Positions 20,305 through 49,162 of a stretch of DNA of 53,800 nucleotides are shown in pieces. The DNA is taken from assembly GCA_030374765.1 (NCBI GenBank), contig JARGXX010000048.1, forward strand, positions 1-53,800, in the 5' to 3' direction. The notes under the pieces were generated by a model. That model ran no database searches. It was not told where the DNA came from and saw only the letters and a program-made list of their open reading frames with translations. Source of the stretch: Agarophyton chilense (Eukaryota > Rhodophyta > Florideophyceae > Gracilariales > Gracilariaceae). The number at the start of each line of letters is the position of its first letter. Position 1 is the first letter of the stretch. A program made the translations under genes and the position numbers.

Positions 20305-21430
20305 ATGAGCCTCAACAAGATCCATCGTATGGCCAATTCGAAAACGGTCCCCCTACTACCCACAACCTTCCGAAATACGCCTCCTCCTATTACGTGCTCC
20401 ACCTGCCCAACTGCGAAACAGAAACCCCTTGTACACAAAACCCAACACCACAACTACACATTAGGTTTATACATAAGCAGCGATACATGTGGCCCCTTTA
20501 AACCACGCTCCCGCCACGGAAACCCACACTACGTAAGCTACCTGGACATCGCAAGTAAATTTCTCATCATATTCTTCATACCAGAGCGCAGCAACGCCAA
20601 ACAAACAACCCCCTATAGCCATCGCCTACATCAGTGCTCAACAGGGCCAACCACCATCCATCTACCGCTCGGACAACGCCGGAGAATTTCAGAGCAACGA
20701 AATGAACGCATTGTACAACCAACACGGCATACAATACAGCTCCACCACTCCCCATAAACCACAAGAGAATTCGCTCTCTGAAAGAGTAAACCAAACCATC
20801 GTGACAGCAACCCAAGCAGAACTCCACCACTCCCAACTCAACGAGACATTCTGGGAGGATGCCAAGAAAGATGTGGTCTATAAATACAACATTACCCTCC
20901 ATGACGCCACAGGAAAGACACCTTTCCAAATCTGGCACAAAAGCACACCCGAACTCACACGCATGTTTTCATTTGGACAATTCGGCACCCTACCCAACTA
21001 CCATCAACAGAAAACCAAATTTGAAGCCCGCACAGATCCTGCTCGTTTCATGTACAACATCTCACAGACCCGTATATTGGCTATCAACCTCCACACCAAC
21101 CAATATACGCACCTCCGCTCTATCGACTTCCGCCCCTACTTCCACCATCTCGACGCCCTTTACCACCGGCCACAAGGGAATAAACAGGCCTTCATGTCAG
21201 TATTACCCATCCCGCAACCGATTCCTCTTACCATCACACCCAACACGCCACCTCCCCAAACCACCGACCAAGCCAAGCGATACACCGACGCAAACCACTG
21301 GGCTGCAGCGCATGATGGCGAACTAGAAACACTAGACAAACACGAAACAACTGAATGGATTCCAAACTCTGAACTACCACCACAAACCAAGACCATTCCA
21401 CTGAAAATGACCTACCGCTACAAACGATAG
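20305..21430 (+). pseudogene. int: copia GAG-pre-integrase and integrase, frameshifted
   Basis: The first frame (20305-20757) carries the zinc-binding region ITCSTCPTAKQK and the core start YISSDTCGPFKPRSRHG (catalytic Asp). The frame changes near 20640-20700. The second frame (20702-21430) continues NQHGIQYSSTTPHKPQENSL with catalytic Glu in SERVNQT, then FWEDAKKDVVYKYN and TGKTPFQIWH, and passes into the RT linker. The middle Asp motif falls in the damaged stretch (RSDNAGEF-like, third frame, about 20666). Confidence 0.85.
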
Positions 21431-22095
21431 GATGATGGCTCTACAACAAGACACAAAGCAAGATGCAACGTGCAAGGCGACTGCATGCTCCCACATGTAC
21501 ACTTTGATCCAGACCGCGTCACAACTTACACCGCTGAATGCCCCTCAACCAGATCCATTATGTGTCTAGCTGCCGCTTTCCATCTTAAACTAGAACAGTT
21601 TGATATATCATCTGCATTCTTCCACGAACGATATGAACACTCCACACCTGTATTCGTGCGACAAATCCCTCGCTTCGATGGTTCCTACAAACACAAGGGC
21701 CGAGCTGGGATACTCAAAGGAAACCTGTGCGGTATCCCTCCTGCCTCCCACATATACTTCGAGGCATTAGCATCATTCCTGAAAAGCAAAGGCTACATTC
21801 AAACTAACAGCGATCCCTGCCTCTTCCTCCGCCTCACATCGGACGGCTCCATCATAATAAGCGTGACCATCGATGACTTCTTAGCGGCTGCTCCAATAAA
21901 GTCCATGATAGATGATCTCTACGACACTCTCCGGTCCAGATACAAGATACGACGACTAGGCCCACCAAAACTCTTTCTCAATTGGCGCATTGAAAGATTC
22001 CCGAACTGTGCCATCCACATCTCCCAACCTCATACCATCCGTGCAATTCTCGAAAAACACAACCTTCTCCACTGTAGTCCCAAGCCAACCCCATA
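21431..22095 (+). pseudogene. copia reverse transcriptase
   Basis: After one stop at 21428 the same frame reopens (21470-22095, 208 aa): LEQFDISSAFFHERYE, FVRQIPRFDG, ILKGNLCGIPPASHIYFEAL, and the active site as SVTIDDFLAA, with Thr-Ile before the two Asp where Tyr-Val is usual. It stops at CCC-CAT-AAA near 22094. It is almost a full RT domain apart from the stop codons. Confidence 0.85.
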
Positions 22096-22857
22096 AATCG
22101 AACCAAACCCCAAAAAGCCACCCGACCAATCTGCACCACTGCCACCGGAGAAAGAATTCGCATACCGCCAAAGAATTGGAGAGCTTCGCTATGTAGCTGA
22201 TTCCACAAGACAGGACATAACCCACATTATAAGCCGCCTGGCTACCAACATGAAAACTCCAACACAAAAGAATTGGGAACAACTCCGCTACTCCCTGAAA
22301 TACCTCAAAGGCACAATAAGCCACGTAATTCTCTACAAGCAGGCCGCCCCTTCCACTCTAGTATCATACGCAGACGCGGTTTCGCAAATGCGTCAGATCG
22401 AAAGTCATACTCTGAAATAGTACACCTCTTAACAAAAAGCCCAGTAATGTGGCAATCGACAAAGCAGAAGAGGATCGCTCTATCGATATGCGAAGCAGAG
22501 TATCATGCGGCGTCAGCGGCCTCTCAGCAAACAATGTGGCTGCGCCGACTGCTGTGTTACATCGGCTACTCCCAGAAGTCCGCGACTCTACTACACATGG
22601 ACAATAATGCCCCAATCTTGGTAGCATACCAAACGGCCCCCACCAAGCACCGGAAGTATTGCCACCTCCGCAGACATTACCTCCATGACCTCATCAAAAG
22701 CAAGCGCATCCTTATCCAGCACACCCCCACCATATCCATGCTCGCAGACATTCTGACGAAAGCGCTCAAGAAACAGACGTTCACTCGACTTCGAAACGCC
22801 CTCAACATCGTGCCGCCACCCCCAAACTACCATCATCGTGCAGGGAAATGCTAGACT
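22096..22857 (+). pseudogene. copia RNase H, frame change near 22376
   Basis: The RT frame continues as YRQRIGELRYVADSTRQDI and reaches VSYADA, the first RNase H strand. The frame then changes near 22376 to FANASDRKSYSEIVHLLTKS, CEAEYHAASAASQQTMWLRR, HMDNNAPILVA and the usual end LADILTKALKKQTF. It ends at the TAG at 22852-22854, 45 bases before the 3' LTR. Confidence 0.85.
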
Positions 22858-26850: not shown

Positions 26851-28062
26851 TCAATTGAACCCCGCCTCAACGCAGTGAACAGTACTCAAATGCCTTTCTA
26901 GGTTCGGTTTCCGGTGAAATTGATGCGAGCATACGGGGCAGACAAAGGGACGCACCTGAGTTACCCGATCCAATATGGATATGTCAAAGAAGATGGTTTC
27001 AAAAGCAATTGCAAAGAGAAATGTTAGAAAAGACCGACGTGATTGAGATCCGCAGTGAAAGCTGAAGTAACTCACTTTTCGATGAATGGCTTGGATGTGT
27101 CGCACCTTATCATGCTTGCGACCAAACGACTTCGTACACCACTCACACTGGAAAATCTTCGGACGTTTGGTACGGGAGCCTGTGATGCCAAGTTTTTCGA
27201 GTCCTGGTTGATGGGTTGGAAATGATGAGCAACCAGCAGGAGCTGTACGTATCGGCAACAACGAATCTTCACGGAGGTTGTGCTCAGGAGACCGGTTGGA
27301 AACTTCTTGAACGAGACACGACGCTTCCGGGGCAGGATAAGGCACATGAACTGGAGATTGGCGAATGCTATCTGAACAAAATCTCTGTGCAATCTCTGGG
27401 GCGCCTCCATCCCGACTCTTGCGCTCCTGAGGTAGTTCCAGAACACTGTTTCTTCGCCACGCTGTTTCCCCATGGCGGTGTTGGTGTGGGATTTCCGTGT
27501 AGTGTTCATTTCCGTAGGACTGGAGTGCAAGAATGGGGTGAGTGCCCCTTGCTTCCTGAAACCATTCGAGAGACACGGGACGAGCGGTTCCACTTCCACT
27601 CCGACGGACATCGCAAGAAGTGGGTTGATGACCGAATCCAAGTCTTGAATCTTCCGGGCGGCCGAATAGAGATTGGAAACTCGGAAGACTTTGTGGTTGC
27701 GGGTTTCCAAGCGGCGGTAGTCGAAGAGATCTAAATTGATGGCGAGATGGAAGTCTGGAATCGTCTGGGCGGCCAAATGAAGATTCCAAACCCGGAAAAC
27801 TTCCCAGTTGAGATAATCCAAGCGGCGGTAGTCGTTGAGAAATAAATCGATGGCCGGATGGAAGTCTTGAATCTTCCGAGCGGCCGAATAGAGATTGAAA
27901 GCTTGGAAGACTCCCTGCTTGAGGGTTTCCAAGCGGCGGTAGTCGGAGAGCGCGGGGAAACTCATCTAAGCTTCTTCTGTTTTGGTTGCTGCGATTTGTG
28001 TAGTGCAATCGCCTTCTCTTGAGAAACCCCGAAAACTGGTGTGCAACAAGTTCATTGTCCAT
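26851..28062 (-). CDS. C2H2 zinc-finger protein with 37-aa repeats; best-preserved copy
   Basis: 403-aa frame. Residues 40-150 are three 37-aa repeats built on LPPLGNPQ-GSLPSFQSLFG and RPEDSRLPS. Finger 1 is at 306-327 (C-x2-C-x12-H-x4-H, CEWCTKSFGRKHDKVRHIQA) and finger 2 at 375-396 (CPVC ... HLSTVH). Codons 330-369 look like an unspliced intron (27075-26956): GTGAGT donor, CAG acceptor, 120 bases, no stop. Splicing joins HRK to VRPFVC, the normal inter-finger spacing. Likely a nuclear DNA-binding protein; target unknown. Relative to the other copies, a 4-base deletion near 27530 links the repeat frame to the finger frame, so the ancestral N-terminal frame is uncertain. Confidence 0.75.
   Translation of the reverse strand: MDNELVAHQFSGFLKRRRLHYTNRSNQNRRSLDEFPRALRLPPLGNPQAGSLPSFQSLFGRSEDSRLPSGHRFISQRLPPLGLSQLGSFPGLESSFGRPDDSRLPSRHQFRSLRLPPLGNPQPQSLPSFQSLFGRPEDSRLGFGHQPTSCDVRRSGSGTARPVSLEWFQEARGTHPILALQSYGNEHYTEIPHQHRHGETAWRRNSVLELPQERKSRDGGAPEIAQRFCSDSIRQSPVHVPYPAPEASCLVQEVSNRSPEHNLREDSLLPIRTAPAGCSSFPTHQPGLEKLGITGSRTKRPKIFQCEWCTKSFGRKHDKVRHIQAIHRKVSYFSFHCGSQSRRSFLTFLFAIAFETIFFDISILDRVTQVRPFVCPVCSHQFHRKPNLERHLSTVHCVEAGFN
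26956..27075 (-). other. predicted 120-nt phase-0 intron in the zinc-finger gene
   Basis: Minus strand: AAA|GTGAGTTACTT ... GTAACTCAG|GTGCGTCCC. It is exactly 40 codons long with no stop, so both the spliced and the retained transcript stay in frame. Splicing makes the two fingers adjacent with the usual seven-residue linker. Confidence 0.7.
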
Positions 28063-28129
28063 ATTAAATGATTGGGTTGTTTGTTGTGTGAGATGCCTTG
28101 CTTATTTCGAGGGAAGACGCAAGGAGTGA

Positions 28130-28907
28130 AACGCATGTAAAGTACACAGAACGAACGGTGAGAGAAACGCTTCAACACACAGAGGGCGATATTTCTCGAC
28201 CAACGTTGATGGCAAAGACGCAAGGTAGCTCGGTGTTCGCCGGCGACACCAGCGTCCAAGTACTGAAAAGTGTGATCTGTTTCACTTCAATCTAGTATCC
28301 GAAAGTACTCGAAGTTTTTCGTCACGGAGCATCATCTCTCATCGCAGCCAAAGAGCACACTGGTTTCCATCCTCTGTGAAAACCAAAATTTGAACGCGGT
28401 GTGAATCATCTTGGACCAGTTTTGTGTCAATAAATCAGAACAGAAAGAACTTCAGGAGCTGTGCTCTCCAACAAAATCACGGACTGAACAGCCGTTGATA
28501 TTCGTTCCAAAACAGAGGGAAGCGCATGGCAGCATGGATGTCGACCGCATGGCAAGACGCTGGTGTCTGTCATACGACAGCATTCGTTGGGTTCCAAGAG
28601 ACGCACATGCGTATGCAAATCAGAAGCTGGTGCAGATGACACGAACAAGCAGAACGAAATGCGCTCGGCGTTGCTCTGGGTGCAGTTGCCGCAGTTGGTG
28701 TCGTCGAAGGAAACAAAGTGATTCGAGATATCAACACAGTTGGACAGTAAGTGATTGTGGTGGTCACTGGCTTGTCTCCTGTAGTGGGGTAGAGGTACAT
28801 GTTGGAAAGCCCTCACGTGTATCGTTGCCATTCAAAAACGATACATACTACTATAACGTTGCTCGAAAAGTATCTTTTGCAGCTATGAACACACGAGTGA
28901 TCAGATG
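28130..28907 (+). repeat. block K, copy 1 of 5 (in L0)
   Basis: About 780 bp from GTAAAGTACACAGAACG to GATCAGATGTGAAA, repeated at 32503-33280, 37870-38645, 44884-45661 and 50251-51026. Near its end is a splice-donor-like ACA|GTAAGTG (about 28745) and an acceptor-like TTTTGCAG (about 28880), 134 bases apart. The frame MDVDRMARRWCLS and the frame with VVEGNKVIRDINTV are open before the donor. In three copies it precedes the RB N-terminal sequence, so it may hold the promoter and first exon of that gene. I could not confirm this by domain match. Confidence 0.6.
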
Positions 28908-30952
28908 TGAAAATACAAGGCCGAGCTTTGGATGATGCGCGGTTCTCAAGAGCTAGGATAAAAGCAACGTCATACGATTTTCAAAGCATCGCACACCGCC
29001 CTTCATGGTTGCACAGAGCGTTTGGAGAAAGCTACGCTGTTCTCATTGGTCGACGTTTGCTTCACGATCACCCCTGCGATGATTCACGAGCCCTAAGTGG
29101 GTGATGTTGATCATTGCAAGGCCTCGCTCTCACTCCGTCCGGGTCCAGGTACTATCTAGCCAAGAATACCATTTGCTGCTCGCCTGCCTCACGCAGTCCG
29201 GTCTCATTGCAGCCTACAATCCTGAGAACGCCGTATTTCGTATCACATGCGCCGTGTCGAGCGAGCCAATCCAATACCAACGCACAGTTGTAACTCTCCT
29301 ACCCCCCGCTGGCCTCACTCGGTTATCGTTCTTTCAGGCTACTGAAGAGGATATCGATGCCCATGGCAAGGGAATAGATGAAGTGTATGCACAACAACTC
29401 ACCGCTGTCGATGACCGTATTGTAAGCGACGAACGTATCTTTCTTCATGCGCCACAGCTTACTGCCGTTGCCGCTTTACCACTCTCGCTCCCCTTACCAC
29501 GTCAGTCTTCATGCGCTGGAACATCAAATTCGTGGCAAAGCCTCCGCCCAGTACAACCATCCGTCGCTGCACTGTTCAAACGCAACAAGGACCCGTCTGT
29601 GCCCGTACGATCTCCGGCCCGGTTCCACTACCCACGCAGCACCATCAACGCCTAAAGCCTCATCACAGCGGCTTCCACACCTCTCAATCGCAAACGTCGT
29701 ATGGACGGCGAAAACCAGTCTGCAGCACCTTTCCCACGCCCCCGAAATCTTCGGTAAGGCTTCCGACTTTGCCGTCACCCCATCATAAGCCCGCCCGCCT
29801 ACGCCGTCGTCGCACGCGCACTCAATCTGCCATGCATTCGTCACTGTCATTCCCGGTTCGCTTCTCACGCTATCTGTCCACTCACCCTGATGCATTGAGC
29901 GTGCACTGGCCACAGTAGCTGTCGTTACGCCGCACTGTACGACGTATCGTGCCTCCTATACCTCCATCATCAAACATTGCTCTCACTCCCGGCACTGACA
30001 ACAATCGATCTGCAACATATTCAGAAGCGTGATCATAAACCTCACTGAGCTGAAGCAGAAACGGCCAGAAACTCGAAGCAAAATCTGTCTCACATGCCCG
30101 CCAGAAAGTGTGGCTATATCGCACGATCTGAGAAGGGTCTTCAGGGGTGGTCGCCCATTAACGCTATCATTGATGTTGGCAGACGGTACTCTGATGCCTT
30201 GTGACGTGATTACGGATCTGAATAATGCCACGGTACAAACGTGAAGCTCTGGCTGCCTTTTTCTCAGTCCATCGACGGTATTCTCGAGAAGAAAAACTTC
30301 GTCGGCTGCGCGAACAGCCTGAAAAGTTTAATAGCAATGTACTTCACAACTACATCCTACACAAAAGTTTCTCACTTTCGCGGGGTAACCGCTGTCTATG
30401 CCTATGGGTAGAAGGGATCTTCACGTTTTCACAGTTGCCTATCGTGCGTTCAATGTATCTGCCCTTTGAGCTTACGAGGCGCTGTAAACATTCTATGCCC
30501 TTGTACCACAGATGCACATCGCTTGGTTAATCATTCGAATAGCTGTGACGCTCGTATTCTAGAATGGATGGCATGGAGACATGACTCGCCTCTGGTACGA
30601 GTTCTTCAAGCATGTAGTCGAGATTTCCTTTGTACGCAAGATGAGAAGAACCCGTTCTAACGAAAAGAAATTTGACGGAGCGAGTGTTGGTGAACACACA
30701 GATGTCCGATCAGTCACCAGAACATAATGAACAGCCAGAAAGTGTAGAACAATCCCCGATTACGCCGCAAAAGCAGAAGATCGAAGAAGGCCAACGTATG
30801 CTCAACAAAGGCGACCATCACACTAAGGTTGAAAGAAATGGGTCGTCCGGAACGACTGTACGGAGATGTTGAAGCCAGAGCAAGAGTTCTAGACTTCTTT
30901 TTTGAAAACTTGTTTGCCCTGGCAAGCTCTAGAATAGGGCCTTTGATAGGAA
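28906..30952 (+). pseudogene. RB-related N-terminal/pocket-A segment, mosaic copy (L0)
   Basis: The RB_N strand EYHLLLACLTQSGLIAAY opens at 29164, and pocket-A pieces follow: PESVAISHDLRR, YKREALAAFFSVHRR, NVLHNYILHKSF, CDARILEWMAWRHDSPLVRV and the linker ITPQKQKIEEGQRM. Relative to 38645-40657, this copy carries short patches from the unrelated sequence at 41348-43333, which cause most of its frame changes. Its join to pocket B at 30953 is out of frame. Not a usable gene as written. Confidence 0.8.
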
Positions 30953-30955
30953 GAT

Positions 30956-31846
30956 TTGGACACCCAAACCAACCTTCGTTCGGCAGTGTGGAAAAGCGTG
31001 CAGTATGCTCTGTGGTGCAGATGGAATTTGACAGTCAACAGACATATTGACTTGATCATCCTGTTTGTGATAGATGGCGTGGCCAAGATCCAACATATCC
31101 AACTGCAGTTCCGCCATATCGTGTGGCACTACAATCAATTGGAGCACACAAGTGATCCTACATTTCGGAGCAATTCTCCACCAGTGTCCCATAACATTTT
31201 TCTCGGAGATTTCGGGCATTTGTTGGCGGAAGATGCTGCCGATGATAGTGGGCCACGACCGGAATCGACGACTGAAGAGACAGGCGATATCATTCGCTTC
31301 TATAACGAAGTGTTTGTGCCTTACATGAGCAACTTCATCGTACTGACGGGCGAAGATATTGAAGGCCGAGATGCAAAGAGATTAGCGGAAGCATTGCGAG
31401 CAAGTAAGGCAGACGACCAAGCTTCAGAAGGTTTGAATGACCTTTCCAGACGGGCAAGCCGCCGTCAGGGAAGGGAACAAAAGAAAATGTTTGGGGATAT
31501 TGATCGTAAATTATTGCAGAGTGCTATGCGCATCATGAAGACACAAAGATCCCCAAAACAAATCGGATCGATTTTTGTTTCTCCCATGTCACCGTCCACG
31601 AGGAATATGGCTCTGAGTCGACAGCACAGCGTGCGGAGAAGTCAAGGCAACGATCTGGGTTCAATGACACCGGGTACTCGGTCACCATTCGCCTTTGGAG
31701 AAAGTCCTATCGGAAATGTTGCAGTGAGTCACAGAAGCCGGGAGAGAAGACGGTATCGACCACTGAGTTTCGACGGGCCGGTTGTCGACGCAAGATGTAC
31801 CGCAGTGCGGCGGGAGGTGCAAGAAGTCATCGGAAGATCAGGTTGA
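30956..31846 (+). CDS. retinoblastoma-related protein, pocket B and C-terminal region (copy R1)
   Basis: Open frame of 296 aa; the first Met is only the first in frame, since RB homology begins at NLRSAVWKSVQYALW. The cyclin-like fold of pocket B follows: NRHIDLIILFVIDGVAKIQ, FRHIVWHYNQ, then the hallmark IIRFYNEVFVPYMSNF (residues 112-127). Beyond the pocket are SP/TP sites (RSPKQIGSIFVSPMSP, MTPGTRSPF) like the cyclin-kinase sites of RB C-terminal regions. RB proteins bind E2F/DP factors and hold the G1-S switch in the nucleus. Pocket A lies upstream but joins out of frame at 30953. Stop at 31844. Confidence 0.87.
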   Translation: MDTQTNLRSAVWKSVQYALWCRWNLTVNRHIDLIILFVIDGVAKIQHIQLQFRHIVWHYNQLEHTSDPTFRSNSPPVSHNIFLGDFGHLLAEDAADDSGPRPESTTEETGDIIRFYNEVFVPYMSNFIVLTGEDIEGRDAKRLAEALRASKADDQASEGLNDLSRRASRRQGREQKKMFGDIDRKLLQSAMRIMKTQRSPKQIGSIFVSPMSPSTRNMALSRQHSVRRSQGNDLGSMTPGTRSPFAFGESPIGNVAVSHRSRERRRYRPLSFDGPVVDARCTAVRREVQEVIGRSG

Positions 31847-32007
31847 GTTGTGAGAAGTACAGAGACCGATTCAGGAGATGCGGAAGATGGTAATGTGTCG
31901 CAAGGTACCGATGGGGACGACATGGAGGTCTGAAGGTGAGTTTGGTGCAGCAGACAGTTGTAGCGCTCCGTAGGGATGTACATATCCGATTGAAACCGAA
32001 GGCAGTT

Positions 32008-32502
32008 CTGTCAAATTCCGTCTGCACCGCAAAGCATACTGCGCGCTTTTCCACACTGCCGAACGAAGGTTGGGTTGGGTGTCCAAATCAGGGGATCGCA
32101 GGCAAGAGAGAGAGCAGTGCTAAGAAACGAGTGCGCGCGGTTGGCAGCGTGCCGGGGCATTATGCGGGCGTACTGCTCGTCGCGCAAGACCGTGAGAAGG
32201 TTTTCCAGTGCGTGGTTGGGTTTGTTGAGCAAAGAGACGGCGTCCATGACGGCGCACATGAGCGTGGTGTGATGAGCGGTGAAATTGGGCTGATCGGATG
32301 CGCACAGGGACGAGAGCAAGTCGGGAAGTAGGGCGGCGACTACTTCAAAGTGATATTCGTGAGGGTGATGGAGCACGGCAAGAAGCGGGGAAAGGATGGC
32401 GTGCGCCAGGCGCGGATGCGGAGTGGCATCATGGAGCAAGCGCGCAATTTCTGTCCAAGCGGCATGACGAACGGCGTGATTCTGATGGTCGAGTTGATGA
32501 TG
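32008..32502 (-). pseudogene. HEAT-like helical gene fragment joined to RB start, reverse (R1)
   Basis: The reverse frame 32580-32011 reads HAVRHAAWTEIARLLHDATP, LSPLLAVLHHPHEYHFEVVA, LLSSLCASDQPNF and LLNKPNHALENLLTVLRDEQ, amphipathic helix pairs like HEAT/armadillo repeats. It ends in an inverted copy of the first 80 bases of the pocket-B segment (NLRSAVWKSAQYALRC in another frame). The first 26 residues of the open frame come from block K, so its Met is not native. The parent gene is unknown. Confidence 0.5.
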
Positions 32503-33280
32503 TAAAGTACACAGAACGCACGGTGAGAGAAACGCTTCAACACACAGAGGACGATATTTCTCGACCAACGTTGATGGCAAAGCCGCAAGGTAGCTCGGTG
32601 TTCGCCGGCGACACCAGCGACCAAGTACTGAAAAGTGTGATCCGTTTCACTTCGATCTAGTATCCGAAAGTACTCGAAGTTTTTCGTCACGGAGCATCAT
32701 CTCTCATCGCAGCCAAAGAGCACACTGGTTTCCATCCTCTGTGAAAACCAAAATTTGAACGCGGTGTGAATCATCTTGGACCAGTTTTGTGTCAATAAAC
32801 CAGAACAGAAAGAACTTCAGGAGCTGTGCTCTCCAACAAAATCACGGACTGAACAGCCGTTGATATTCGTTCCAAAACGGAGGGAAAGCGCATGTCAGCA
32901 TGGATGTCGACCGCATGGCAAGACGCTGGTGTCTGTCATACGACAGCATTCGTTGGGTTCCAAGAGACGCACATGCGTATGCAAATCAGAAGCTGGTGCA
33001 GATGACACGAACAAGCAGAACGAAATGCGCTCGGCGTTGCTCTGGGTGCAGTTGCCGCAGTTGGTGTCGTCGAAGGAAACAAAGTGATTCGAGATATCAA
33101 CACAGTTGGACAGTAAGTGATTGTGGTGGTCACTGGCTTGTCTCCTGTAGTGGGGTAGAGGTACATGTTGGAAAGCTCTCACGTGTATCGTTGCCATTCA
33201 AAAACGATACATACTACTATAACGTTGCTCGAAAAGTATCTTTTGCAGCTATGAACACACGAGTGATCAGATGTGAAACG
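32503..33280 (+). repeat. block K, copy 2 of 5 (R1)
   Basis: Same sequence as 28130-28907 but preceded by the HEAT-like fragment and followed by CGCGATTCGAAGATGG rather than the RB N-terminal sequence. It includes the donor-like ACA|GTAAGTG at about 33112 and acceptor-like TTTTGCAG at about 33248. Confidence 0.85.
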
Positions 33281-35660
33281 CGATTCGAAGATGGTACAGA
33301 ATTTGCGTTGTGGGTGCAGTTTACAGAATTGGGAGCGATTACTTAGCGGGGGAACGGAATTTAGGCTTGATGGAAAGCTGTGCGCTTTGGAAGCAATAAT
33401 GGACATCCATAGACAGATAGTGCTTAACGTGATGGATGATATCAGCTTTGGTAAAATGTACATGTTGTTGGCGACTGTGCCCCAAGCACAGAAACGTGCA
33501 CCGTAACCTTTCCGTCTCCAACCTCTTTGTCCCTCGACTGCATCTGAACAGATGCTGATTCGGCAGCGTATCTGAAACTGGCAGATGGGCAACTGTTTAC
33601 GTGCAGCACTTGCGTTTGTCTACGGGGATTGCGTACCTTCCGTACTGGTATACTTCCTCCCGAGCGTAGCGAAAGCAAACTGTATTCATGAGCTGGCGCA
33701 AATGTGGATATCAAGCAGTTTTGCAGGTGACACTGCAGCAAGTGTTCTAAAGAGGAAACGGATTGGCCAGTGTGACATCATTTGTTGGAAACTTAAAATG
33801 TCCCGGTGGGTGAGAATGCGATCAATGGGCCGTATATGCGTGCTCAAAGTTGGCCGAAACGGTGCACATTTAAAACAGTTTAGTGTACTGACTGTCTCAC
33901 ATCTCGTAGGGCAACCGCTGTAGATTTGGAACGCTCATAAATAGTTGTTCAGCACAGGCCGGGGCTTGATCATCTTTCTCCGCTCCTGTCTATTCTGCCA
34001 TCGACTTTGGTTTGCTCGATCGAGGCCGGGGTCTTTTCGATCGTTGTGGCGTGCCCTTTTGGCTTAGGCTTAACTGACATTCCACATCGGGCGTCCATGT
34101 CCTTCATCGTTGTTCAGGAAAACACAAATTCTTCTGAGAAATTCAGCGTACTCTTCCAGCAGTACGGTTGATATTCATAGAGCCCACAACAGTGCTGTTG
34201 TAAAACAGTTCGAGGGTTTTCTGTGAAATCTCGTGATGGTATCGCGACAGGTCAGTAGCATGTATTAACACTTGTCCAGCACAGGTTTTGGTTTTGCCGC
34301 TTCCCTCCTGCACGCTCAACGCCGTCCTCTTTGGTTTCCCAACCCAGTGCCCACTGCTTTTGATTTTATGCTGTGTCCCTACGCGCTTAGGTTCATGCCG
34401 AAAATCAGAAATGCGCGCCAATGCCCGTTCACCATTGACTGGGTGTAAGTTATTCCAAGTCTTCTGTTTGTTTCACTGCAGTCTGGTAGTACTTGGGTTG
34501 ATCGTCATGTACCACACAATTATACAAGGCCGGTGTGCGTGGATGCGGTACAGTGTGTCGCTGGTGCCCGTGGCATAGAGAGACCTGGGCATGACTTTCT
34601 TGTCTCAAATTGTACAGGTACTCTTCTCAATTCTTCAGAACGTACCAGAGCTTGGCGCTCTGTAGTGTAGTGGAGACAAGAGCGTAGTTTCAGTAACCTT
34701 AGTGCGTCGGGATGAGCAATAGTCGGCTGGGTTCTGGTTCTAAACGGTTAGATGAAATTCAAATACATTGTAGTGGTTGGCAGGTAAGGCGATGCTAGGC
34801 TACAATCTTGCATCGGGAGCGCTTGAATAGGAATGGGGCGGCTGATCCTACAGACAAATAGCGATGGGAATTAACACAGGATTTGTCGAGTCGAACTTGA
34901 ATGGCGGCTCCGAAACGAATTTGGACCACAACTACTACGTTTGTCGCCGTTCTCGAGACCATTGTCGTCAAAGCTCGACCGGGACGTCCAAGGTGCTAGA
35001 TGAAGATTGCGCCACTGAAAGCTGGGCACGAGGTACATAGCCCTTTTAGTTGAAGGAGTTCTGGTGCCCTCTTGGCGCGTCAGACCGTGTCCTGAGAGAG
35101 AAAACATTCCAACAACAACAGCCGGCGGACGCAAGGGTTGCCGCTTCAATCGTTCACTTTCCAAGTGCGGTGGGTAAGGTAAACAATGCTGTTGCGGGCG
35201 CGGGCTCCGCGCTCGCCGCCTGATCCTTTTCAACGGTCGAAGCTAGTGTGGAAGTTGGTCGGAGTTTTATCTGTTCTGTGGCCAAGCTGCGCTGAAACCA
35301 TTTCAGGGCGCATTTGTACAGTTGCGACCGCGTGCAGTTGCAGGCGCATCTTATCTCCAGATTTGCTAAATTTGACCATCGACAGCCTCTGGTGCAAGCA
35401 AGTATATCAAATAATCCGCAGATTGGTTGGCGCACACGGTGGACTTTCGCCATGGTGGCGGAGTTTCGGACCACTCAACATGCGTCCGCCACTCGGAGCA
35501 AATGTCTTTCCAAGAAATAATTGCCATTCACAACGTAACAAAAATATAGCAACGCTACTATGTTTAGGACAGCTCGCTTCTTCTTTGTTATCGTGTGGTG
35601 TGGACTACATCACCCTTTCCTATGATTTCGTGACCGAGGTTTCTTTCTCCGTCTTTTGAG
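33281..35660. other. non-coding stretch and unit leader (unit 1)
   Basis: 33281-34260 holds frames up to 112 aa on either strand with no recognisable family. 34260-35660 is the leader shared with 24490-25800, extended by about 240 bases at 35215-35455. Frames such as 35186-35659 are not conserved in the L0 copy, so I do not call them genes. Confidence 0.6.
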
Positions 35661-35663
35661 GAC

Positions 35664-36467
35664 ATGATCCGGTCTTGCGTCCTGATAGAACGCGAGAAAA
35701 GTGTGGAAAAGAAGACAGCTTATAATGCGTGTCTTGTTATTTCGCGTACTAGAGAATTTCTCTCAGTTTACGATTGCCAGCGGTATCAAGATAGGTATAC
35801 TAATTACTCACAAGGCCTTTCGGCATGTGGGCTGCACGACCCAAATCGCAGCAACGAAAACAGAAGACTCCCAGATGGGTTTCCCCCCCGCTCTCCAACT
35901 AAACTACCGCCGCTTGGAAACCCTCAGACGGGCAGTCTTCCACGCTTAGAATCCATCTCCGGCCGCCCGGAAGATTCAAGAATTCCATCCGTGTATCAAA
36001 CCAGCTCTCTCCGAGAACACCCGCTTAGAACATCTCAACCGAGAACTCTCCCAAGTTTGGAATCTTCATTTGGCCGCCCGGAAGATTCAAGACTTGGATT
36101 TGGCCATAAATCCATTTCTTGTGATGTCCAACGGAGTAGAAGTGGGACCTTTCGTCCGGTGTCTCTCAATTTGTCTCAGGAAGCAAGTTGCGCTTACCCC
36201 AACCAAGACTGCATTCCAGTCCCACGGAAATGCCACACAACAGCCACCATGAGGAAAAAGTGTGGCGAAGAGGCAACGTTCTGGAAGTACTTCAGGAACA
36301 TAATAGTCTGGAAGAAGGAGCGCCAGAGATTTCACAGGGGGTTTCTTCAGAAAACATTCACCAATATGCAGTTCCCGTGCCTTGTTCTGCCCCGCAAGCG
36401 TTGTATTCCACGCAAGAAGTTTCCAAGCAGTTCTCCTGAGCATAACCTTCAGGCGACAGAACACTGA
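35664..36467 (+). pseudogene. forward zinc-finger gene copy, finger region missing (unit 1)
   Basis: Same 267-aa frame as 25810-26613 with about five residue changes. It has the repeat array (LPPLGNPQTGSLPRLES, SSFGRPEDSRLGFGH) and no finger. Inverted, tail-to-tail, with 36782-37742. Confidence 0.6.
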
Positions 36468-36781
36468 TAGAAGTTTGTGGATAACTTACTACATTACGGC
36501 TAGAGTCGCAAGCTATACTTTCCTCACACCCGTTGATAAACTGTGACGATTGGGGTGCTCTGCGCATACATGGCTCAAATTATCCTCCATCTCCGTAAAG
36601 TAGATCTTGTACAGCCTAAATTGCAAATGCTCGAAAGCTTAATGAGCAGTTTTCATGTGGAATTCGATCAGTGCTCTTTGCAAAACCTGGCTACCCGATC
36701 CAATATGAATATGTCAAAGAAGATGGTTTCAAAAGCAATTGCAAAGAGAAATGTTAGAAAAGACCGACGTGATTGAGATCC

Positions 36782-37742
36782 GCAGTGAAAGCTGAAGTAA
36801 CTCACTTTTCGATGAATGGCTTGGATGTGTCGCACCTTATGATGCTTGCGACCAAACGACTTCGTACACTACTCACACTGGAAAATCTTGGGACGTTTGG
36901 TACGGGAGCCTGTGATGCCAAGTTTTTCGAGTCCTTGTCGATGATTTGGGAAAGCCGAGCAATCAGCAGGAGCTTTACTCTCCGGCAAAAACGAATCTTC
37001 ACGGAGGTTGTGCTCAGGAGACTGGTTGGGAACTTCTTGCGTGTAATACAACGCTTGCGGTGCAGAACAAAGCACATGAACTGCATATTGGTGAATTTTG
37101 CCTGAAGAAAATCTCTGTGCCATCTCTGGGGCTCCTTCTTCCGGGCTATTATGTTCCTGAAGTACTTCCAGAACGTTGCCTCTTCGCCACGCTGTTCCCC
37201 CATGGCGGTTTTGGTGTGGGATTTCCGTGTATTGTTCATTTCCGTGGGACTGGAATGCAGTCTTGGTTGGGGTAAGCGCAACTTGCTTCCTGAAACCATT
37301 CGAGAGACACGGGACGAACGGTTCCACTTCTACTCCGACGGACATCGCAAGAAGTGGGTTGATGACCGAATCCAAGTCTTAAATCTTCCGGGCGGCCGAA
37401 AAGAGATTCGAAACCAGGAAGACTTCCCGGTTGAGATATTCCAAGCGGCGGCAGTCGAAGAGATCTAGATTGATGGCCGGATGGAAGTCTGGAATCGCCT
37501 GGGCGGCCAAATGAAGATTCGAAACCCGGAAGACTTCCCGGTTGAGATATTCCAAGCGGCGATAGTCGTTGAGAAACAAATCGATGGCCGGATGGAAGTC
37601 TTGACTCTTCGTGGCGGCCGAATAGAGATTGGAAGCTCGGAAGACTCCCTGCTTGAGGGTTTCCAAGCGGCGGTAGTCGGAGAGCGCGGGGAAACTCATC
37701 TAAGCTTCTTCTGTTTTGGTTGCTGCGATTTGTGTAGTGCAA
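36782..37742 (-). pseudogene. reverse zinc-finger gene copy, broken (unit 1)
   Basis: The repeat array is in frame 37742-37236. The fingerward part is in frame 37375-36869. The Trp of finger 1 (CEWC) is a TAG stop at 36869, a deletion of about 125 bases near 36690 removes all of finger 2, and a TAG replaces the Lys of FLKRRR upstream, leaving a later Met. The donor site of the predicted intron is still there. Confidence 0.8.
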
Positions 37743-37869
37743 TCGCCTTCTCTAGAGAAACCCCGAAAACTGGTGTGCAACAAGTTCACTGTCCATATTA
37801 AACGATTGGGTTGTTTGTTGTGTGAGATGCCTTGCTTATTTCGAGGGAAGACCCAAGGATTGAAACGCA

Positions 37870-38645
37870 TGTAAAGTACACAGAACGAACGGTGAGAGAA
37901 ACGCTTCAACACACAGAGGGCGATATTTCTCGACCAACGTTGATGGCAAAGACGCAAGGTAGCTCGGTGTTCGCCGGCGACACCAGCGTCCAAGTACTGA
38001 AAAGTGTGATCTGTTTCAATTCGATCTAGTGTCCGAAAGTACTCGAAGTTTTTCGTCACGGAGCATCATCTCTCATCGCAGCCGAAAAGCACACTGGCTT
38101 CCATCCTCTGTGAAAACCAAAATTTGAACGCGATGTGAATCATCTTGGACCAGTTTTGTCGCAATAAACCAGAACAGAAAGAATTCAGGAGCTTTGCTCT
38201 CCAACAAAATCGCGGACTGAACAGCATTTGATATTCGTTCCAAAACAGAGGGAAGCGCATGGCAGCATGGATGTCGACCGCATGGCAAGGCGCCGGTGTC
38301 TGTCATACGACAGCATTCGTTGGGTTCCAAGAGACGCACATGCGTATGCAAATCAGAAGCTGGTGCAGATGACACGAACAAGCAGAACGAAATGCGCTCG
38401 GCGTTGCTCTGGGTGCAGTTGCCGCAGTTGGTGTCGTCGAAGGAAACAAAGTGATTCGAGATATCAACACAGTTGGACAGTAAGTGATTGTGGTGGTCAC
38501 TGGCTTGTCTCCTGTAGTGGGGTAGAGGTACATGTTGGAAAGCCCTCACGTGTATCGTTGCCATTCAAAAACGATACATACTACTATAACGTTGCTCGAA
38601 AAGTATCTTTTGCAGCTATGAACACACGAGTGATCAGATGTGAAA
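37870..38645 (+). repeat. block K, copy 3 of 5 (unit 1, before RB)
   Basis: Follows the reverse zinc-finger copy and leads directly into ACTCCGGCCGAGC and the RB N-terminal segment. Confidence 0.85.
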
Positions 38646-40657
38646 CTCCGGCCGAGCTTTGATGGTAGCGGTCTCAAGAGCTACAAAAAAGCAACACCAT
38701 ACGGTCGTGCATCGCACACCGCCTTCATGGTTGCAGCAAACGTTTGGAGAAAGCTACGCTTTCTCATTGGTCGCCGTTTGCTTCACAATCACCCCTCTGT
38801 TTCACGACCCTCGCATGGCTCTTGTTCATCATTGCAAAGGCCTCGCTCTCATCTCCGTCCGGGTCCTGGTACCACCATTTTTAAACCTACCATTTGCTGC
38901 TCGCCTGCCTCACGCAGTCCGGTCTCATTGCAGCATACAATCCTGAGAACGCCGTATTTCGTATCACATGCGCCGTGTCGAGCGAGTTGCACCAATACCA
39001 ACGCACAGTTGTAACTCTCCTACCCCCCGCTATCCTCACTCGGTTATCGTTCTTTCAGGCTACTGAAGATGATATCGATGCCCATGGCAAGTCAATAGAT
39101 GAAGTGTATGCACAACAACTCACCGCTGTCGATGACCGTATTGTAAGCGACGAACGTATCTTTCTTCATGCGCCACAGCTTACTGCCGTTGCCGCTTTAC
39201 CACTCTCGCTCCCCTTACCACGTCAGTCTTCATGCGCTGGAACATCAAATTCGTGGCAAAGCCTCCGCCCAGTACAACCATCCGTCGCTGCACTGTTCAA
39301 ACGCAACAAGGACCCGTCTGTGCCCGTACGATCTCCGGCCCAGCCCACTACCCACGCAGCACCATCAACGCCTAAAGCCTCATCACAGCCTTCCACACCT
39401 CTCAATCGCAAACGTCGTATGGACGGCGAAAACCAGTCTGCAGCACCTACCCCACGCCCCCGAAATCTTCGGAAGGCTTCCGACTTTGCCGTCACCCCAT
39501 CATAAGCCCGCCCGCCTACGCCGTGTCGCACGCGCACTCAATCTGCCATGCATTCGTCACTGTCATTCCCGGTTCGCTTCTCACGCTATCTGTCCACTCA
39601 CCCTGATGCATTGGAGGCACTGGCCACAGTAGCTGTCGTTACGCCGCACTGTACGACTATCGTGCCTCCTATACCTCCATCATCAAACATTGCTCTCACT
39701 CCCGGCACTGACAACAATCGATCTGCAACATGGATCAGTGAGCTGAAGCAGAAACGACCAGAAACTCGAAGCGAAACGTGTCTCACATGCCCGCCAGAAA
39801 GTGTGGCTATATCGCACGATCTGAGAAGGGTCACTGGGGGTGGTCGCCCATTATACGCTATCATTGATGTTGGCAGACGGTACTCTGATGCCTTGTGACG
39901 TGATTACGGATCTGAATAATTCCCGGTACAAACGTGAAGCTCTGGCTATCTGTTTCTCAACCATCGAAGGTATTCTCGAGAAGGAACTTCGTCGGTTACG
40001 CGAACAGCCTGAAAAGTTTAATAGCAATGTACTTCACAACTACATCCTACACAAAAGCTTTCTCACTTTCGCGTGGGATACCGCTGTCTATGCCTAGGGT
40101 AGAAGGGATCTTCACGTTTTCACAGTTGCCTATCGTGCGTTCAATGTATCACCCTTTGAGCTTACGAGGCGCTGTAAACATTTTATACCCTTGTACCACA
40201 GATGCCACATCGCTTGGTTAATCATTCGAATAGCTGTGACGCTCGTATTCTAGAATGGATGGCATGGAGACATGAATCGCCTCTGGTACGAGTTCTTCAA
40301 GCATGTAGTCGAGATTTCCTTTGTACGCAAGATGAGAAGAACCCGTTCTAACCAAAAGAGAAATTTGACGGAGCGAGTGTTGGTGAACACACAGATGTCC
40401 GATCAGTCACCAGAACATAATGAACAGCCAGAAAGTGTAGAAAAATCCCCGATTACGCCGCAAAAGCAGAAGATCGAAGAAGGACAACGTATAGAAACAA
40501 AGGCGATGATCACACTAAGGTTGAAAGAAATGGGGCGTCCGGAACGACTGTACGGAGATGTTGAAGCCAGAGCAAGAGTTCTTGAGTTCTTTTTTGAAAA
40601 GATGTGTACCCTGGCAAGCACTAGAATAGGAAAGTTGTTAGGAAGACTTGGCCCCAC
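38646..40657 (+). pseudogene. RB-related N-terminal and pocket-A segment (unit 1)
   Basis: Cleaner than the L0 copy. RB_N-like: LLACLTQSGLIAAYNPENAV (38894 on), running to a Pro/Ser/Thr-rich linker with SP/TP sites (VRSPAQP, APTPRPR). A TAA at 39503 interrupts the frame, which resumes in phase to RSATWISELKQKRPE and PESVAISHDLRRV (pocket-A start). A frame change near 39880 leads to YKREALAICFSTIEGILEKE and NVLHNYILHKSF, then ILEWMAW, and finally SPITPQKQK and LYGDVEARARVLEFFFEKM. The segment ends at 40657, where unrelated sequence begins before pocket B. Confidence 0.82.
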
Positions 40658-42400
40658 TCCGTTGCCCCGACGAGAAGAAGCGCCGCTCTCTGCTGGCGTT
40701 GTCGGAGACCGCCGCCAAGTGCCGTCGCCGACTTACCCTCTCTGCAGAGCGATCAGCGTTGATGTCTGCGCTGGCTGCCGACTTGAGCCTCAAGAAAACA
40801 TTGCGAATGATGTTATTCTTTCAATTAGTTGCGTTTTTAGCATGGCGACGGGGCGGCACGGCATGGAGCGGGATGTGAAGCTGCTTGCAATGATCTCGAA
40901 ATGCTCCAAGGAGAAACGCTTGTCCCCTCTGGTGGCTTGTGGGTGCCAGAAGTGAGCCACCCAACTTGCCCCGAACCCGGTAACTGCCTCCTGCATAGAC
41001 GTGGACTTGATCACGTGGGCAATGGAGTGCCGGGACACATTGTCCATTAAATGTAGCACGCAAAATTGATCCAGAAACAAGTGATCAATGCATACGAGGT
41101 CGTTGAATGCCGAGTTCAACGAGCTGATCGACACCTTCATCGTTGGAGGTGAAACTGTGCAATCGTTCACCATGTCTGCCACGTACTGGGCGACAGTGCG
41201 GTTTCACAGCTTGTTGCGCTGTAGCAAGAGTTTGAAGTCCGAAAAGCAGGTGTGGCCGCAAACATGCGCGTGCACATTGTCAATGATAGCCTCCACATCG
41301 CCCCACGGCGACTTTTCGAGCGCAACGGCGGACAGACAGTAGAGAGTAAATACAAGGTATCCTTTGGATGATGCGAAGCGTTCTACAGAGATATAGGATA
41401 GGAAGCCGTCATCAACGATTTTCAAAGGATCGTTCGCGCCGTTGGCATCGAAGCACAGAGCGTTCATACCAAAATGAACAATGTTCGCCTTGGGGGTGAC
41501 ATTTCTCCCGATCACCCACTGCGATGATCCTTCGAGCACTAAGTGGGTGATGTTGATGTCATTTCCGAGGTCAGACTTGGCGCGCAGGACTATCTAGCCA
41601 AGAATGCTGCGCTGGAGGCTTGCATGAGCACCCACGTCATATTGCTACCTGGTGTGGCCGTTGAGCGATGCAGGAATCGTTTCATGTGGAGTGTCGGGAG
41701 CCAATCCGAGTTCGATAGACAGGAGATGCAGCTCGACTTGTCCGCTGGCACTGTACGGTGCGCCGTCATCTAGGAGAGGACCGAGACGGGCAGGCGCGGG
41801 ATTTGCGGAGACAGCTGCCGTTGAACTGGTCATGGTGGCACAGTTAAAAGAAACAACCTTCTTCGGGGCATCATTCTGCTGTCCATACTTGTTCGGCGGC
41901 GACGTGTTCAGCGATGGAGCTGGGGAGTCGAGGCAGCGCACATGGGAGGGTAAGGAACCATCCGGGTTGTGGTTCTTTTTCCGTTGACCAAACTTCTTGA
42001 AAATGTCACAAGGATAGCGCATGGAAAGGAGTCTACCCTTGTTGCGACGGTCGGGGCGGTTCTAGTTGCGCGGCAGGAGCTGTGCTGCATTGGCAGCGAT
42101 TGAAAGCGGCTGTGGGGAGCCGATAGAGTGTGCATGAGGGACTTCATCACACTGGCGAAAGACAGACGCCATTTTCTCATACGACATAGTGTTGAGGTAA
42201 TCCGTCGTCGTCGCAGTAGCAGTCAAAGTGCTGTTCGTTGATGTCGCCGCAAGCACCGAGACACGCTGCCCATTGTCGACAGCTGAGTTTTTCAAAAGCA
42301 TGAAGGCTGTCAGCGACTCTGGCAACTTGGCGGATTCAGATTGAGCGTGAAACTTAGACGCCGAAGCATCTAATCTAAGTTCGAAATTGGGGAACGTTTA
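40658..42400 (-). pseudogene. reverse-strand retroelement fragment (gag, protease, integrase)
   Basis: Reading right to left: a gag-like frame (42325-42062), then 42022-41645 with GPLLDDGAPYSASGQVELHL, a protease-like D-D-G-A strand, then 41539-41204 with SQWVIGRNVTPKANIVHFGM and an integrase zinc-binding start (HVCGHTCFSDFKLLLQRNKL), then 41182-40790 with DHLFLDQFCVLHLMDNVSRH and ATRGDKRFSLEHF, an integrase core with two Asp motifs. RT is absent and the second Cys of the zinc module is Ser. The family is an LTR element I cannot place further. Confidence 0.65.
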
Positions 42401-43015
42401 ATTGCCGGAGCCCTTCATATTCAGAAGCGTGATAAAGTTCCCATAAACCTCACTGACAACAGACAGCGAATCTCACTTATAGATGGTTTTGACGATCTTG
42501 TCGGCTTCTTCATCTGAAGCAACATCTTCGTCACTGATCGTAGAACGCAGATCTCGAGACCTTCCATACAGCTGGCTCTTCAGAATTGTTCTGCGAATCG
42601 GTAACGCCATCTTGTTCGATTTTGAGTCGGGCAATTTCTCGTGAAATGAAGTCTTATAGTGCCACTGACTTTGCGTAATCTTCCTGGTTGCCTTTGCCGT
42701 CAGTCCACAGGACGTTTTTCAGGTCCTAAGAAAAACGTGGACGGCTGCGCGTGCCGGAGGATGAGGCTGGTGCTGGGCCCATAACTAAGTATTGAGCGGG
42801 GTAACAACTGTAGCTATGTTTCTTAGACAACTTGGGTGCCCCGGCGTCCGTGTAGTCAGATGACCTGCAGATTCATCTTGCTGTGTTTATGTAGACAATA
42901 GTAATTGCTCATGTAAAGGCACTAACTACGAATGCAAGTTGGAACGGGCGTCAGGGCACGTAAGTGCTCGCGTGCGCATTACATGGCATCCTGTCACTAG
43001 CTGTCGACATTCATA
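42401..43015. other. unassigned sequence between retroelement fragment and HEAT-like fragment
   Basis: No gene seen. This stretch is one of the two templates of the mosaic at 30016-30600 (for example CATATTCAGAAGCGTGAT at 42416). Confidence 0.5.
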
Positions 43016-43335
43016 CGCACGCCATCCTTTCCGCGCTTCTTGCCGTGCTCCATCACCTTCACGAAAATCACTTTGAAGTAGTCGCCGCCCTACTTCCCGA
43101 CTTGCTCTCGTCCCTGCGCGCATCCGATCAGCCCAATTTCACCGCTCATCACACCACGCTCATGTGCGCCGTCATGGACGCCGTCTCTTTGCTCAACAAA
43201 CCCAACCATGCACTCGAAACCCTTCTCACGGTCTTGCGCGACGAGCAGTACGCCCGCATAATGCCCCGGCACGCTGCCAACCGCGCGCACTCGTTGCTTA
43301 GCAATGCTCTCTCTCTCTTGCCTGCGATCCCCTGA
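43016..43335 (+). pseudogene. HEAT-like helical gene fragment, forward copy
   Basis: The frame reads LSALLAVLHHLHENHFEVVA, LLPDLLSSLRASDQPNF and LLNKPNHALETLLTVLRDEQ, close to the reverse copies at 32008 and 44389 with a few substitutions. It ends at the CTGATTTGG join to the pocket-B segment. With 44389-44786 it forms a 400-bp inverted repeat around pocket B. Confidence 0.5.
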
Positions 43336-43415
43336 TTTGGACACCCAAACCAACCTTCGTTCGGCAGTGTGGAAAAGCGTGCAGTATGCTCTGTGGTGCA
43401 GATGGAATTTGACAG
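43016..43415 (+). repeat. left arm of 400-bp inverted repeat
   Basis: Reverse complement of 44389-44786 with scattered substitutions. It covers the forward HEAT-like fragment and the first 80 bases of pocket B, ending at AATTTGACAG. Confidence 0.8.
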
Positions 43416-44227
43416 TCAACAGACATATTGACTTGATCATCCTGTTTGTGATAGATGGCGTGGCCAAGATCCAACATATCCAACTGCAGTTCCGCCATAT
43501 CGTGTGGCACTACAATCAATTGGAGCACACAAGTGATCCTACATTTCGGAGCAATTCTCCACCAGTGTCCCATAACATTTTTCTCGGAGATTTCGGGCAT
43601 TTGTTGGCGGAAGATGCTGCCGATGATAGTGGGCCACGACCGGAATCGACGACTGAAGAGACAGGCGATATCATTCGCTTCTATAACGAAGTGTTTGTGC
43701 CTTACATGAGCAACTTCATCGTACTGACGGGCGAAGATATTGAAGGCCGAGATGCAAAGAGATTAGCGGAAGCATTGCGAGCGAGTAAGGCAGACGACCA
43801 AGCTTCAGAAGGTTTGAATGACCTTTCCAGACGGGCAAGCCGCCGTCAGGGAAGGGAACAAAAGAAAATGTTTGGGGATATTGATCGTAAATTATTGCAG
43901 AGTGCTATGCGCATCATGAAGACACAAAGATCCCCAAAACAAATCGGATCGATTTTTGTTTCTCCCATGTCACCGTCCACGAGGAATATGGCTCTGAGTC
44001 GACAGCACAGCGTGCGGAGAAGTCAAGGCAACGATCTGGGTTCAATGACACCGGGTACTCGGTCACCATTCGCCTTTGGAGAAAGTCCTATCGGAAATGT
44101 TGCAGTGAGTCACAGAAGCCGGGAGAGAAGACGGTATCGACCACTGAGTTTCGACGGGCCGGTTGTCGACGCAAGATGTACCGCAGTGCGGCGGGAGGTG
44201 CAAGAAGTCATCGGAAGATCAGGTTGA
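43349..44227 (+). CDS. retinoblastoma-related protein, pocket B and C-terminal region (copy R2)
   Basis: Same protein as 30956-31846 from NLRSAVWKS to the stop. The open frame begins upstream at 43304, inside the HEAT-like arm, so no native start or pocket A precedes it here. All pocket-B landmarks (NRHIDLII, FYNEVF, VSPMSP) are kept. Confidence 0.87.
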   Translation, partial: TNLRSAVWKSVQYALWCRWNLTVNRHIDLIILFVIDGVAKIQHIQLQFRHIVWHYNQLEHTSDPTFRSNSPPVSHNIFLGDFGHLLAEDAADDSGPRPESTTEETGDIIRFYNEVFVPYMSNFIVLTGEDIEGRDAKRLAEALRASKADDQASEGLNDLSRRASRRQGREQKKMFGDIDRKLLQSAMRIMKTQRSPKQIGSIFVSPMSPSTRNMALSRQHSVRRSQGNDLGSMTPGTRSPFAFGESPIGNVAVSHRSRERRRYRPLSFDGPVVDARCTAVRREVQEVIGRSG

Positions 44228-44388
44228 GTTGTGAGAAGTACAGAGACCGATTCAGGAGATGCGGAAGATGGTAATGTGTCGCAAGGTACCGATGGGGACG
44301 ACATGGAGGTCTGAAGGTGAGTTTGGTGCAGCAGACAGTTGTAGCGCTCCGTAGGGATGTACATATCCGATTGCAACCGAAGGCAGTT

Positions 44389-44883
44389 CTGTCAAATTCC
44401 GTCTGCACCGCAAAGCATACTGCGCGCTTTTCCACACTGCCGAACGAAGGTTGGGTTGGGTGTCCAAATCAGGGGATCGCAGGCAAGAGAGAGAGCAGTG
44501 CTAAGAAACGAGTGCGCGCGGTTGGCAGCGTGCCGGGGCATTATGCGGGCGTACTGCTCGTCGCGCAAGACCGTGAGAAGGTTTTCCAGTGCGTGGTTGG
44601 GTTTGTTGAGCAAAGAGACGGCGTCCATGACGGCGCACATGAGCGTGGTGTGATGAGCGGTGAAATTGGGCTGATCGGATGCGCACAGGGACGAGAGCAA
44701 GTCGGGAAGTAGGGCGGCGACTACTTCAAAGTGATATTCGTGAGGGTGATGGAGCACGGCAAGAAGCGGGGAAAGGATGGCGTGCGCCAGGCGCGGATGC
44801 GGAGTGGCATCATGGAGCAAGCGCGCAATTTCTGTCCAAGCGGCATGACGAACGGCGTGATTCTGATGGTCGAGTTGATGATG
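44389..44883 (-). pseudogene. HEAT-like fragment joined to RB start, reverse (R2)
   Basis: Near-identical copy of 32008-32502; forms the right arm of the inverted repeat with 43016-43415. Confidence 0.5.
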
Positions 44884-45661
44884 TAAAGTACACAGAACGC
44901 ACGGTGAGAGAAACGCTTCAACACACAGAGGACGATATTTCTCGACCAACGTTGATGGCAAAGCCGCAAGGTAGCTCGGTGTTCGCCGGCGACACCAGCG
45001 ACCAAGTACTGAAAAGTGTGATCCGTTTCACTTCGATCTAGTATCCGAAAGTACTCGAAGTTTTTCGTCACGGAGCATCATCTCTCATCGCAGCCAAAGA
45101 GCACACTGGTTTCCATCCTCTGTGAAAACCAAAATTTGAACGCGGTGTGAATCATCTTGGACCAGTTTTGTGTCAATAAACCAGAACAGAAAGAACTTCA
45201 GGAGCTGTGCTCTCCAACAAAATCACGGACTGAACAGCCGTTGATATTCGTTCCAAAACGGAGGGAAAGCGCATGTCAGCATGGATGTCGACCGCATGGC
45301 AAGACGCTGGTGTCTGTCATACGACAGCATTCGTTGGGTTCCAAGAGACGCACATGCGTATGCAAATCAGAAGCTGGTGCAGATGACACGAACAAGCAGA
45401 ACGAAATGCGCTCGGCGTTGCTCTGGGTGCAGTTGCCGCAGTTGGTGTCGTCGAAGGAAACAAAGTGATTCGAGATATCAACACAGTTGGACAGTAAGTG
45501 ATTGTGGTGGTCACTGGCTTGTCTCCTGTAGTGGGGTAGAGGTACATGTTGGAAAGCTCTCACGTGTATCGTTGCCATTCAAAAACGATACATACTACTA
45601 TAACGTTGCTCGAAAAGTATCTTTTGCAGCTATGAACACACGAGTGATCAGATGTGAAACG
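44884..45661 (+). repeat. block K, copy 4 of 5 (R2)
   Basis: Near-identical to 32503-33280, same flanks. Confidence 0.85.
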
Positions 45662-48040: not shown

Positions 48041-48044
48041 GGAC

Positions 48045-48848: not shown

Positions 48849-49162
48849 TAGAAGTTTGTGGATAACTTACTACATTACGGCTAGAGTCGCAAGCTATACT
48901 TTCCTCACACCCGTTGATAAACTGTGACGATTGGGGTGCTCTGCGCATACATGGCTCAAATTATCCTCCATCTCCGTAAAGTAGATCTTGTACAGCCTAA
49001 ATTGCAAATGCTCGAAAGCTTAATGAGCAGTTTTCATGTGGAATTCGATCAGTGCTCTTTGCAAAACCTGGCTACCCGATCCAATATGAATATGTCAAAG
49101 AAGATGGTTTCAAAAGCAATTGCAAAGAGAAATGTTAGAAAAGACCGACGTGATTGAGATCC

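Follow-up and report, generated by a model that had tools for sequence, protein, structure and literature searches.

At positions 28906–30952 of the 53,800-base window analysed here, which is the whole of contig C48, the sequence appears to be woven from two others that do not resemble each other, and the question is whether such a patchwork is DNA of the organism or a product of assembly software. An earlier note on this DNA described an ordered alternation between a retinoblastoma (RB) copy and an unrelated sequence, and proposed that a consensus had been built from wrongly aligned repeat copies. The comparisons described below, which cover the window and a searched genome of 79.76 Mb in 135 contigs, lead us to regard the segment, called M, as very probably a consensus artefact of mixed repeat copies, arising from a false overlap or from mis-polishing of repeat classes. 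The letters argue strongly for the mosaic and in part for its computed origin.

Repeat copies occupy the window from 24.5 kb on, and M, its flanks X and R, the templates, the insertion and the tandem unit are all read on the plus strand. To the left of M lies X (26954–28905), an ordinary diverged copy of 36685–38644 in which no patches of the second template are seen; its portion 28135–28912 is 98.6% identical to 32500–33278. To the right lies R (30953–31327), a pocket-B (RB_B) exon of the insertion-bearing class, with a profile match at 30950–31327 that begins at profile position 22. R opens a single tandem unit of 12,381 bases (30953–43333), the first 9.7 kb of which (30953–40657) are 99.76% identical to 43334–53038, with a period of 12,381 bases. 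The first template, A, is a broken RB segment found twice: as A1 (38645–40657), recognized by similarity searches, a junction check and RB profiles, and as A2 (51026–53038), recognized by genome search, junctions and profiles. A2 belongs to an uninterrupted class joined directly to the pocket-B exon, while A1 is followed by an insertion of ~2.68 kb (40658–43333); in one class of array copies this insertion interrupts the pocket-B domain. Junctions delimit the part of this insertion that separates A1 from the second template (T, 40658–41347); the second template itself, B (41348–43333), is the right part of the insertion, as defined by junctions, genome search and a profile. The note had placed both templates just upstream of a pocket-B segment, which does not apply to the copy at 38645, where the 2.68 kb of 40658–43333, B included, intervene. 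At 2047 bases, M is longer than either parent (A, 2013; B, 1986).

The patchwork is present in the letters. All eight patches listed earlier are found at their positions in both places, and the alternation of A and B in order along M is confirmed by a count of departures: with A taken as 38645–40644, M differs from it at 178 columns, and B explains 132 of them (42 of 56 inserted bases, 82 of 113 substitutions and 8 of 9 deletions). Between patches M follows the RB copy, as had been claimed, with 1878 of 1991 aligned bases equal to A (94.3%). A and B themselves, forced together in a three-way alignment, agree at 806 of 1829 bases (44.1%), a level that we read as that of unrelated sequences, again in line with the note. 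The offset between patch and template, described as nearly constant at about 12.4 kb, holds approximately, ranging from 12391 to 12446 over the listed patches.

A patchwork of this kind might consist of chance matches selected by eye, and two of the eight listed words do recur: CAGTCCA lies also at 7180 and 10119, as well as on the other strand of the window, and GCTCAACAAA recurs on the reverse strand at 32221 and 44602. Both are weak patches because of these further copies; the remaining six are found nowhere else in the window. Chance is nevertheless refuted by the departure count and by the exact, ordered blocks. Under the same alignment, B reversed explains 32 departures, B reverse-complemented 32 of 177, 25 other segments of the window 50 ± 14 (maximum 67) and 15 shuffles 41 ± 13 (maximum 67), so that all 42 control alignments explain at most 67 departures against 132 of 178 for B. 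Moreover, M and B share exact blocks in order, up to 19 bases long, those of 15 to 19 bases occurring once in each template, and this evidence is free of any alignment. The probability left to chance is negligible.

Hardly more credible is shared ancestry, according to which A and B would be homologues that have diverged very far, and M, of intermediate age, would be their third paralogue. A blastn match of 73% between 28911–29111 and 41348–41557 speaks for it, but that match involves M, and the same list holds no match between A and B, whose agreement is 44% when forced. In addition, what M shares with B takes the form of exact blocks separated by near-perfect A. This explanation is rejected, as similarity between A and B is absent independent of M. 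The letters of M are drawn from two templates of the same assembly, as would be expected of a consensus artefact of mixed copies.

The comparison extends to other copies of A in the genome. A search with M, in which 40 of 74 candidates were scored, returned at least 40 places including M itself. Of the 39 others, two lie within the window and 37 elsewhere in the genome. Thirty-five were aligned, leaving aside the copy on contig C4 (90%) and three partial copies; 13 of the 35 cover the start of A and 10 begin ~350 bases into it. Relative to these 35 copies, 166 columns of M as far as 30952 are private, 132 with the letter of B and 34 with that of neither template; four more lie just beyond, all of them B. 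In this alignment M helps to place B. The private columns of the 35 copies themselves have no excess of B (12 of 54). When B is aligned by MAFFT to the 13 full-length A copies first and M is added later, just 39 of 177 private columns equal B; left alone, MAFFT does not put B onto A in the register of the patches. Because M helps to place B in the private-column alignment, the fair controls are the templates given the same freedom, which reach at most 67 of 178, together with the exact ordered blocks.

M is also unique among the sequences searched. Two junction probes, allowed up to two mismatches and up to one mismatch respectively, were run against all 79.8 Mb for a second mosaic and found M only, and the junction between X and B was not found elsewhere in the genome at up to one mismatch. 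Inspection by eye of the alignment of the left flank X reveals no contamination from the B side, that is, from the sequence to the left of B.

The departures of M from all A copies are unevenly spread, with counts of 61, 19, 3, 11, 33, 18, 4 and 12 per successive 250 bases. They peak at 28906 and again at 29906, a spacing that could reflect fixed consensus windows.

The position of the patches is informative as to their origin, since a minimum-edit path is the product of an alignment program and not of recombination. A and B were aligned at unit cost without M, and the extra edits of a path forced through each patch were counted, with patches found automatically as exact M–B matches of at least 8 bases containing at least two departures from A (n = 16). 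Ten of the 16 cost zero extra edits, nine of them within 28911–29313 and one at 30016, whereas 10.8% of 923 four-base A–B matches lying at most 60 bases from the diagonal do so by chance, with the caveat that adjacent patches depend on one another. For the remaining six the cost is 3–5 edits, no better than that of chance pairs (29% at three or fewer, 62% at seven or fewer). With the scoring changed, each of the nine left patches needed 0 to 3 edits, except that one required 6 in a single scheme. A stricter test, in which optimal A–B alignments were sampled and the frequency with which B predicts the substitutions of M relative to A1 was compared with 25 controls, separates the two halves of the pattern. 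To the left of 29400 the A–B path predicts 15 of 35 substitutions (controls 4.1 ± 1.7, maximum 7.8), a result with which two further scoring schemes agree, and on these figures the left part of M follows the minimum-edit path. To the right of 29400 the path predicts 3.4 of 40 substitutions against 4.5 ± 1.5 in controls, so there is no excess; reads entering in another register would explain the missing path sign in this part.

That the right-hand patches do not follow a computed A–B path is one of two observations favouring real DNA, in which repeated template switching between A and B, by microhomology-mediated break-induced replication or a similar process, would have interleaved the two at a scale of 10–20 bases, in register, over 2 kb; the other is that the patches are ordered and bounded by short A–B matches. 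Microhomology-mediated template switching is expected to involve few switches between templates, whereas M has ~16 patches within 2 kb; the two templates are unrelated, and after each patch almost the same register is resumed. Further, the left patches lie on the global minimum-edit path, and the probes find no second copy although the array has at least 39 other matching places. We consider template switching very improbable, and no recombination mechanism known to us would explain the mosaic if it were real.

The artefact reading draws further evidence from the repeat classes that meet at M. In 37 fetched copies the junction after A leads directly to the pocket-B exon in 21, to the insertion T–B in 14 and to neither in two. 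The RB_B profile begins at position 2 in most matches of the uninterrupted class and at position 23 in most of the insertion class, from which it follows that the insertion splits the pocket-B domain. Nine sites, all within 30891–30942, are fixed between two classes of X-bearing copies, and there M carries the uninterrupted letter at seven and neither letter at two; M then ends in the B-side junction. In the body of M (29383–30675), eight of ten linked A-polymorphic sites match five insertion-class copies (A1, L026, L028, L029 and L030), and the other two lie inside B patches. From R onwards, identity to the insertion-class copy at 43334 is 99.76% over 9.7 kb, compared with 96.7% over 768 columns to an uninterrupted copy. 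Body and tail point to different classes of A, and at least two classes seem to be mixed besides B: a tail of the uninterrupted class joined to a body and an R of the insertion class means that more than one repeat class is mixed in and around M. An assignment of the whole left side to the uninterrupted class, suggested by L024 with the fewest mismatches (8 of 67), was dropped, as it holds solely for the last bases of M.

The indels of M are biased towards insertions. Against all A copies, M has 56 insertions, 46 of them with the letters of B, and 10 deletions. A further apparent signature of voting, in which B seemed to tip A-polymorphic sites (7 of 14 against 1 of 29, Fisher p = 0.0007), was withdrawn, since these sites are linked to one another and the letters of M are those of A copies already present, apart from the two sites within patches.

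Two versions of the artefact can be told apart. In the one that we hold to be possible and clearly the lesser share, the join is right, a plain A or B allele stands here, and it was at the polishing step alone that reads of the wrong class garbled its letters. The start of M coincides with the boundary of X, where the first bases of B follow X, as this version would have it, and the HiCanu paper warns of polishing reads mapped to the wrong repeat copy (PMC7545148). Against it, the X–B junction is absent elsewhere at up to one mismatch, and the class letters switch at the right end of M.

A mixed consensus was also simulated. A small partial-order consensus program was given reads of both A and B, with noise added and flanks in common; the simulation presupposes B reads with X attached, an arrangement of which the genome search gave no instance. 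With eight runs in each of six settings, the number of M-private 11-mers recovered, out of 662, averaged 19.6, 3.3, 8.3, 17.8, 12 and 15.6; controls averaged between 0 and 3, and the real mean lay above every control mean in each setting. The most recovered in any of these eight-run settings was 37 of 662, and in one setting four of eight real runs recovered none. A noisier simulation with six runs per setting yielded 1–25 of the 662 11-mers, with single controls up to 12 and 17, and the first simulation, with three settings of one run each, yielded 17, 0 and 0 of 852 M-private 15-mers. The mean length of the simulated consensus ran from 2279 to 2478, and M with the same flanks, at 2311, is near the value of the 9:7, 6% setting (2313), among others. 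A mixed consensus yields such patchwork and some of the very junctions of M; it does not reproduce M.

Taken together, these results support the proposal that M is a consensus of wrongly aligned copies, through the path followed by its left part, the excess of insertions, the change of class at its end, the unique junction and the simulation; the proposal loses its path sign to the right of 29400, and it is also weakened by the six patches off the optimal path, the 39 of 177 columns under MAFFT, the 34 private columns of neither template, the differing classes of body and tail, and the low recovery in simulation. The sequence of events that we infer starts from two main classes in an array of probable RB pseudogenes, one uninterrupted, with A joined to a pocket-B exon (R'), and one insertion-bearing, with the order A–T–B–R. 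Reads, or the ends of contigs, with A in them would have been overlapped with B–R reads in the course of assembly or polishing, because the sequence to the right is common and the lengths are nearly equal (2013 and 1986). The aligner would then have forced the unrelated A and B onto each other, and the consensus step would have chosen the letter of A for most positions and that of B for the rest, with a bias towards insertions. Both the read-level event and the software step in this account are inferred.

The array itself is large. Broken RB copies fill the window from 24485 to 53800 and are present on contigs C26, C40, C42–C47, C50–C52, C54, C55, C59, C121, C122, C125 and C126; RB_B profile matches in the genome number 51, and a protein search with RB_B gave no match at E 0.001. 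The RB_A matches listed in the array contain one or two internal stop codons, whereas on C4 (70282–71385) RB_A and RB_B lie in a 1212-residue open frame without a stop. The C4 gene is thereby a candidate for the working RB and the array copies would be pseudogenes; some of the RB_A stops in the array could stem from introns or frameshifts. The first ~1.67 kb of B are dispersed at ~79–90% identity on C11, C16, C28, C34, C80, C100, C123 and C135, with pieces on C75 (among the best 40 of 184 candidates scored), and the right end of B (43016–43415) is an inverted copy, at 96%, of 32008–32405 within the array unit.

Other observations concern the rest of the window. A minus-strand open reading frame at 26851–28062, in the left flank, has two C2H2 zinc-finger matches. 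Retrotransposon-like frames lie at 2285–5067 and 20305–22854: the first encodes an LTR polyprotein whose closest named matches, among the best 120 listed, are proteins of Chondrus crispus (52% over 89%) and of Agarophyton chilense (up to 83% over 39%), and the second appears Copia-like as judged by eye. In a gamma-tubulin search (best 120 of 8000 scored candidates), the highest score goes to an entry under the name Camelus ferus (71% over 81%), which has probably been mislabelled or contaminated; among the matches listed, relatives reach up to 94%, and Rhodosorus marinus, among those with a name, 77%.

The locus suggests that a finished contig may contain a 2-kb stretch of letters with no counterpart in any cell. 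Suspicion can be raised from the letters alone, when departures come from one other template and fall partly on the minimum-edit path of that pair. No genes, copy numbers or recombination events should be read from M or from the join at 28905/30953, and M should not be taken as new biology before the raw reads are examined.

Among known assembly hazards, the literature on such artefacts that was searched yielded no described case of two unrelated stretches blended in this way. A Gracilaria paper describes a pipeline of PacBio reads, Canu or Flye, Racon and Pilon (PMC10388701); a pipeline of this type could produce such an artefact, and none of the present results ties this genome to that study. 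In Genome assembly forensics (PMC2397507), reads placed in the wrong repeat copy are described as giving correlated differences and false joins. Wrong-copy placement of reads is common to those signatures and to M, but the signals there are at the level of reads, whereas M is known from the finished consensus alone. Close to M is also the case made in the HiCanu paper (PMC7545148), which cautions that reads can be assigned to the wrong copy during polishing and that haplotypes as well as similar copies are blended when the consensus is permissive. As there, reads of different repeat copies would be mixed at M into a consensus that is no true copy; the copies mixed there are similar, whereas here unrelated stretches of nearly equal length were seemingly forced together, perhaps through their shared right flank.
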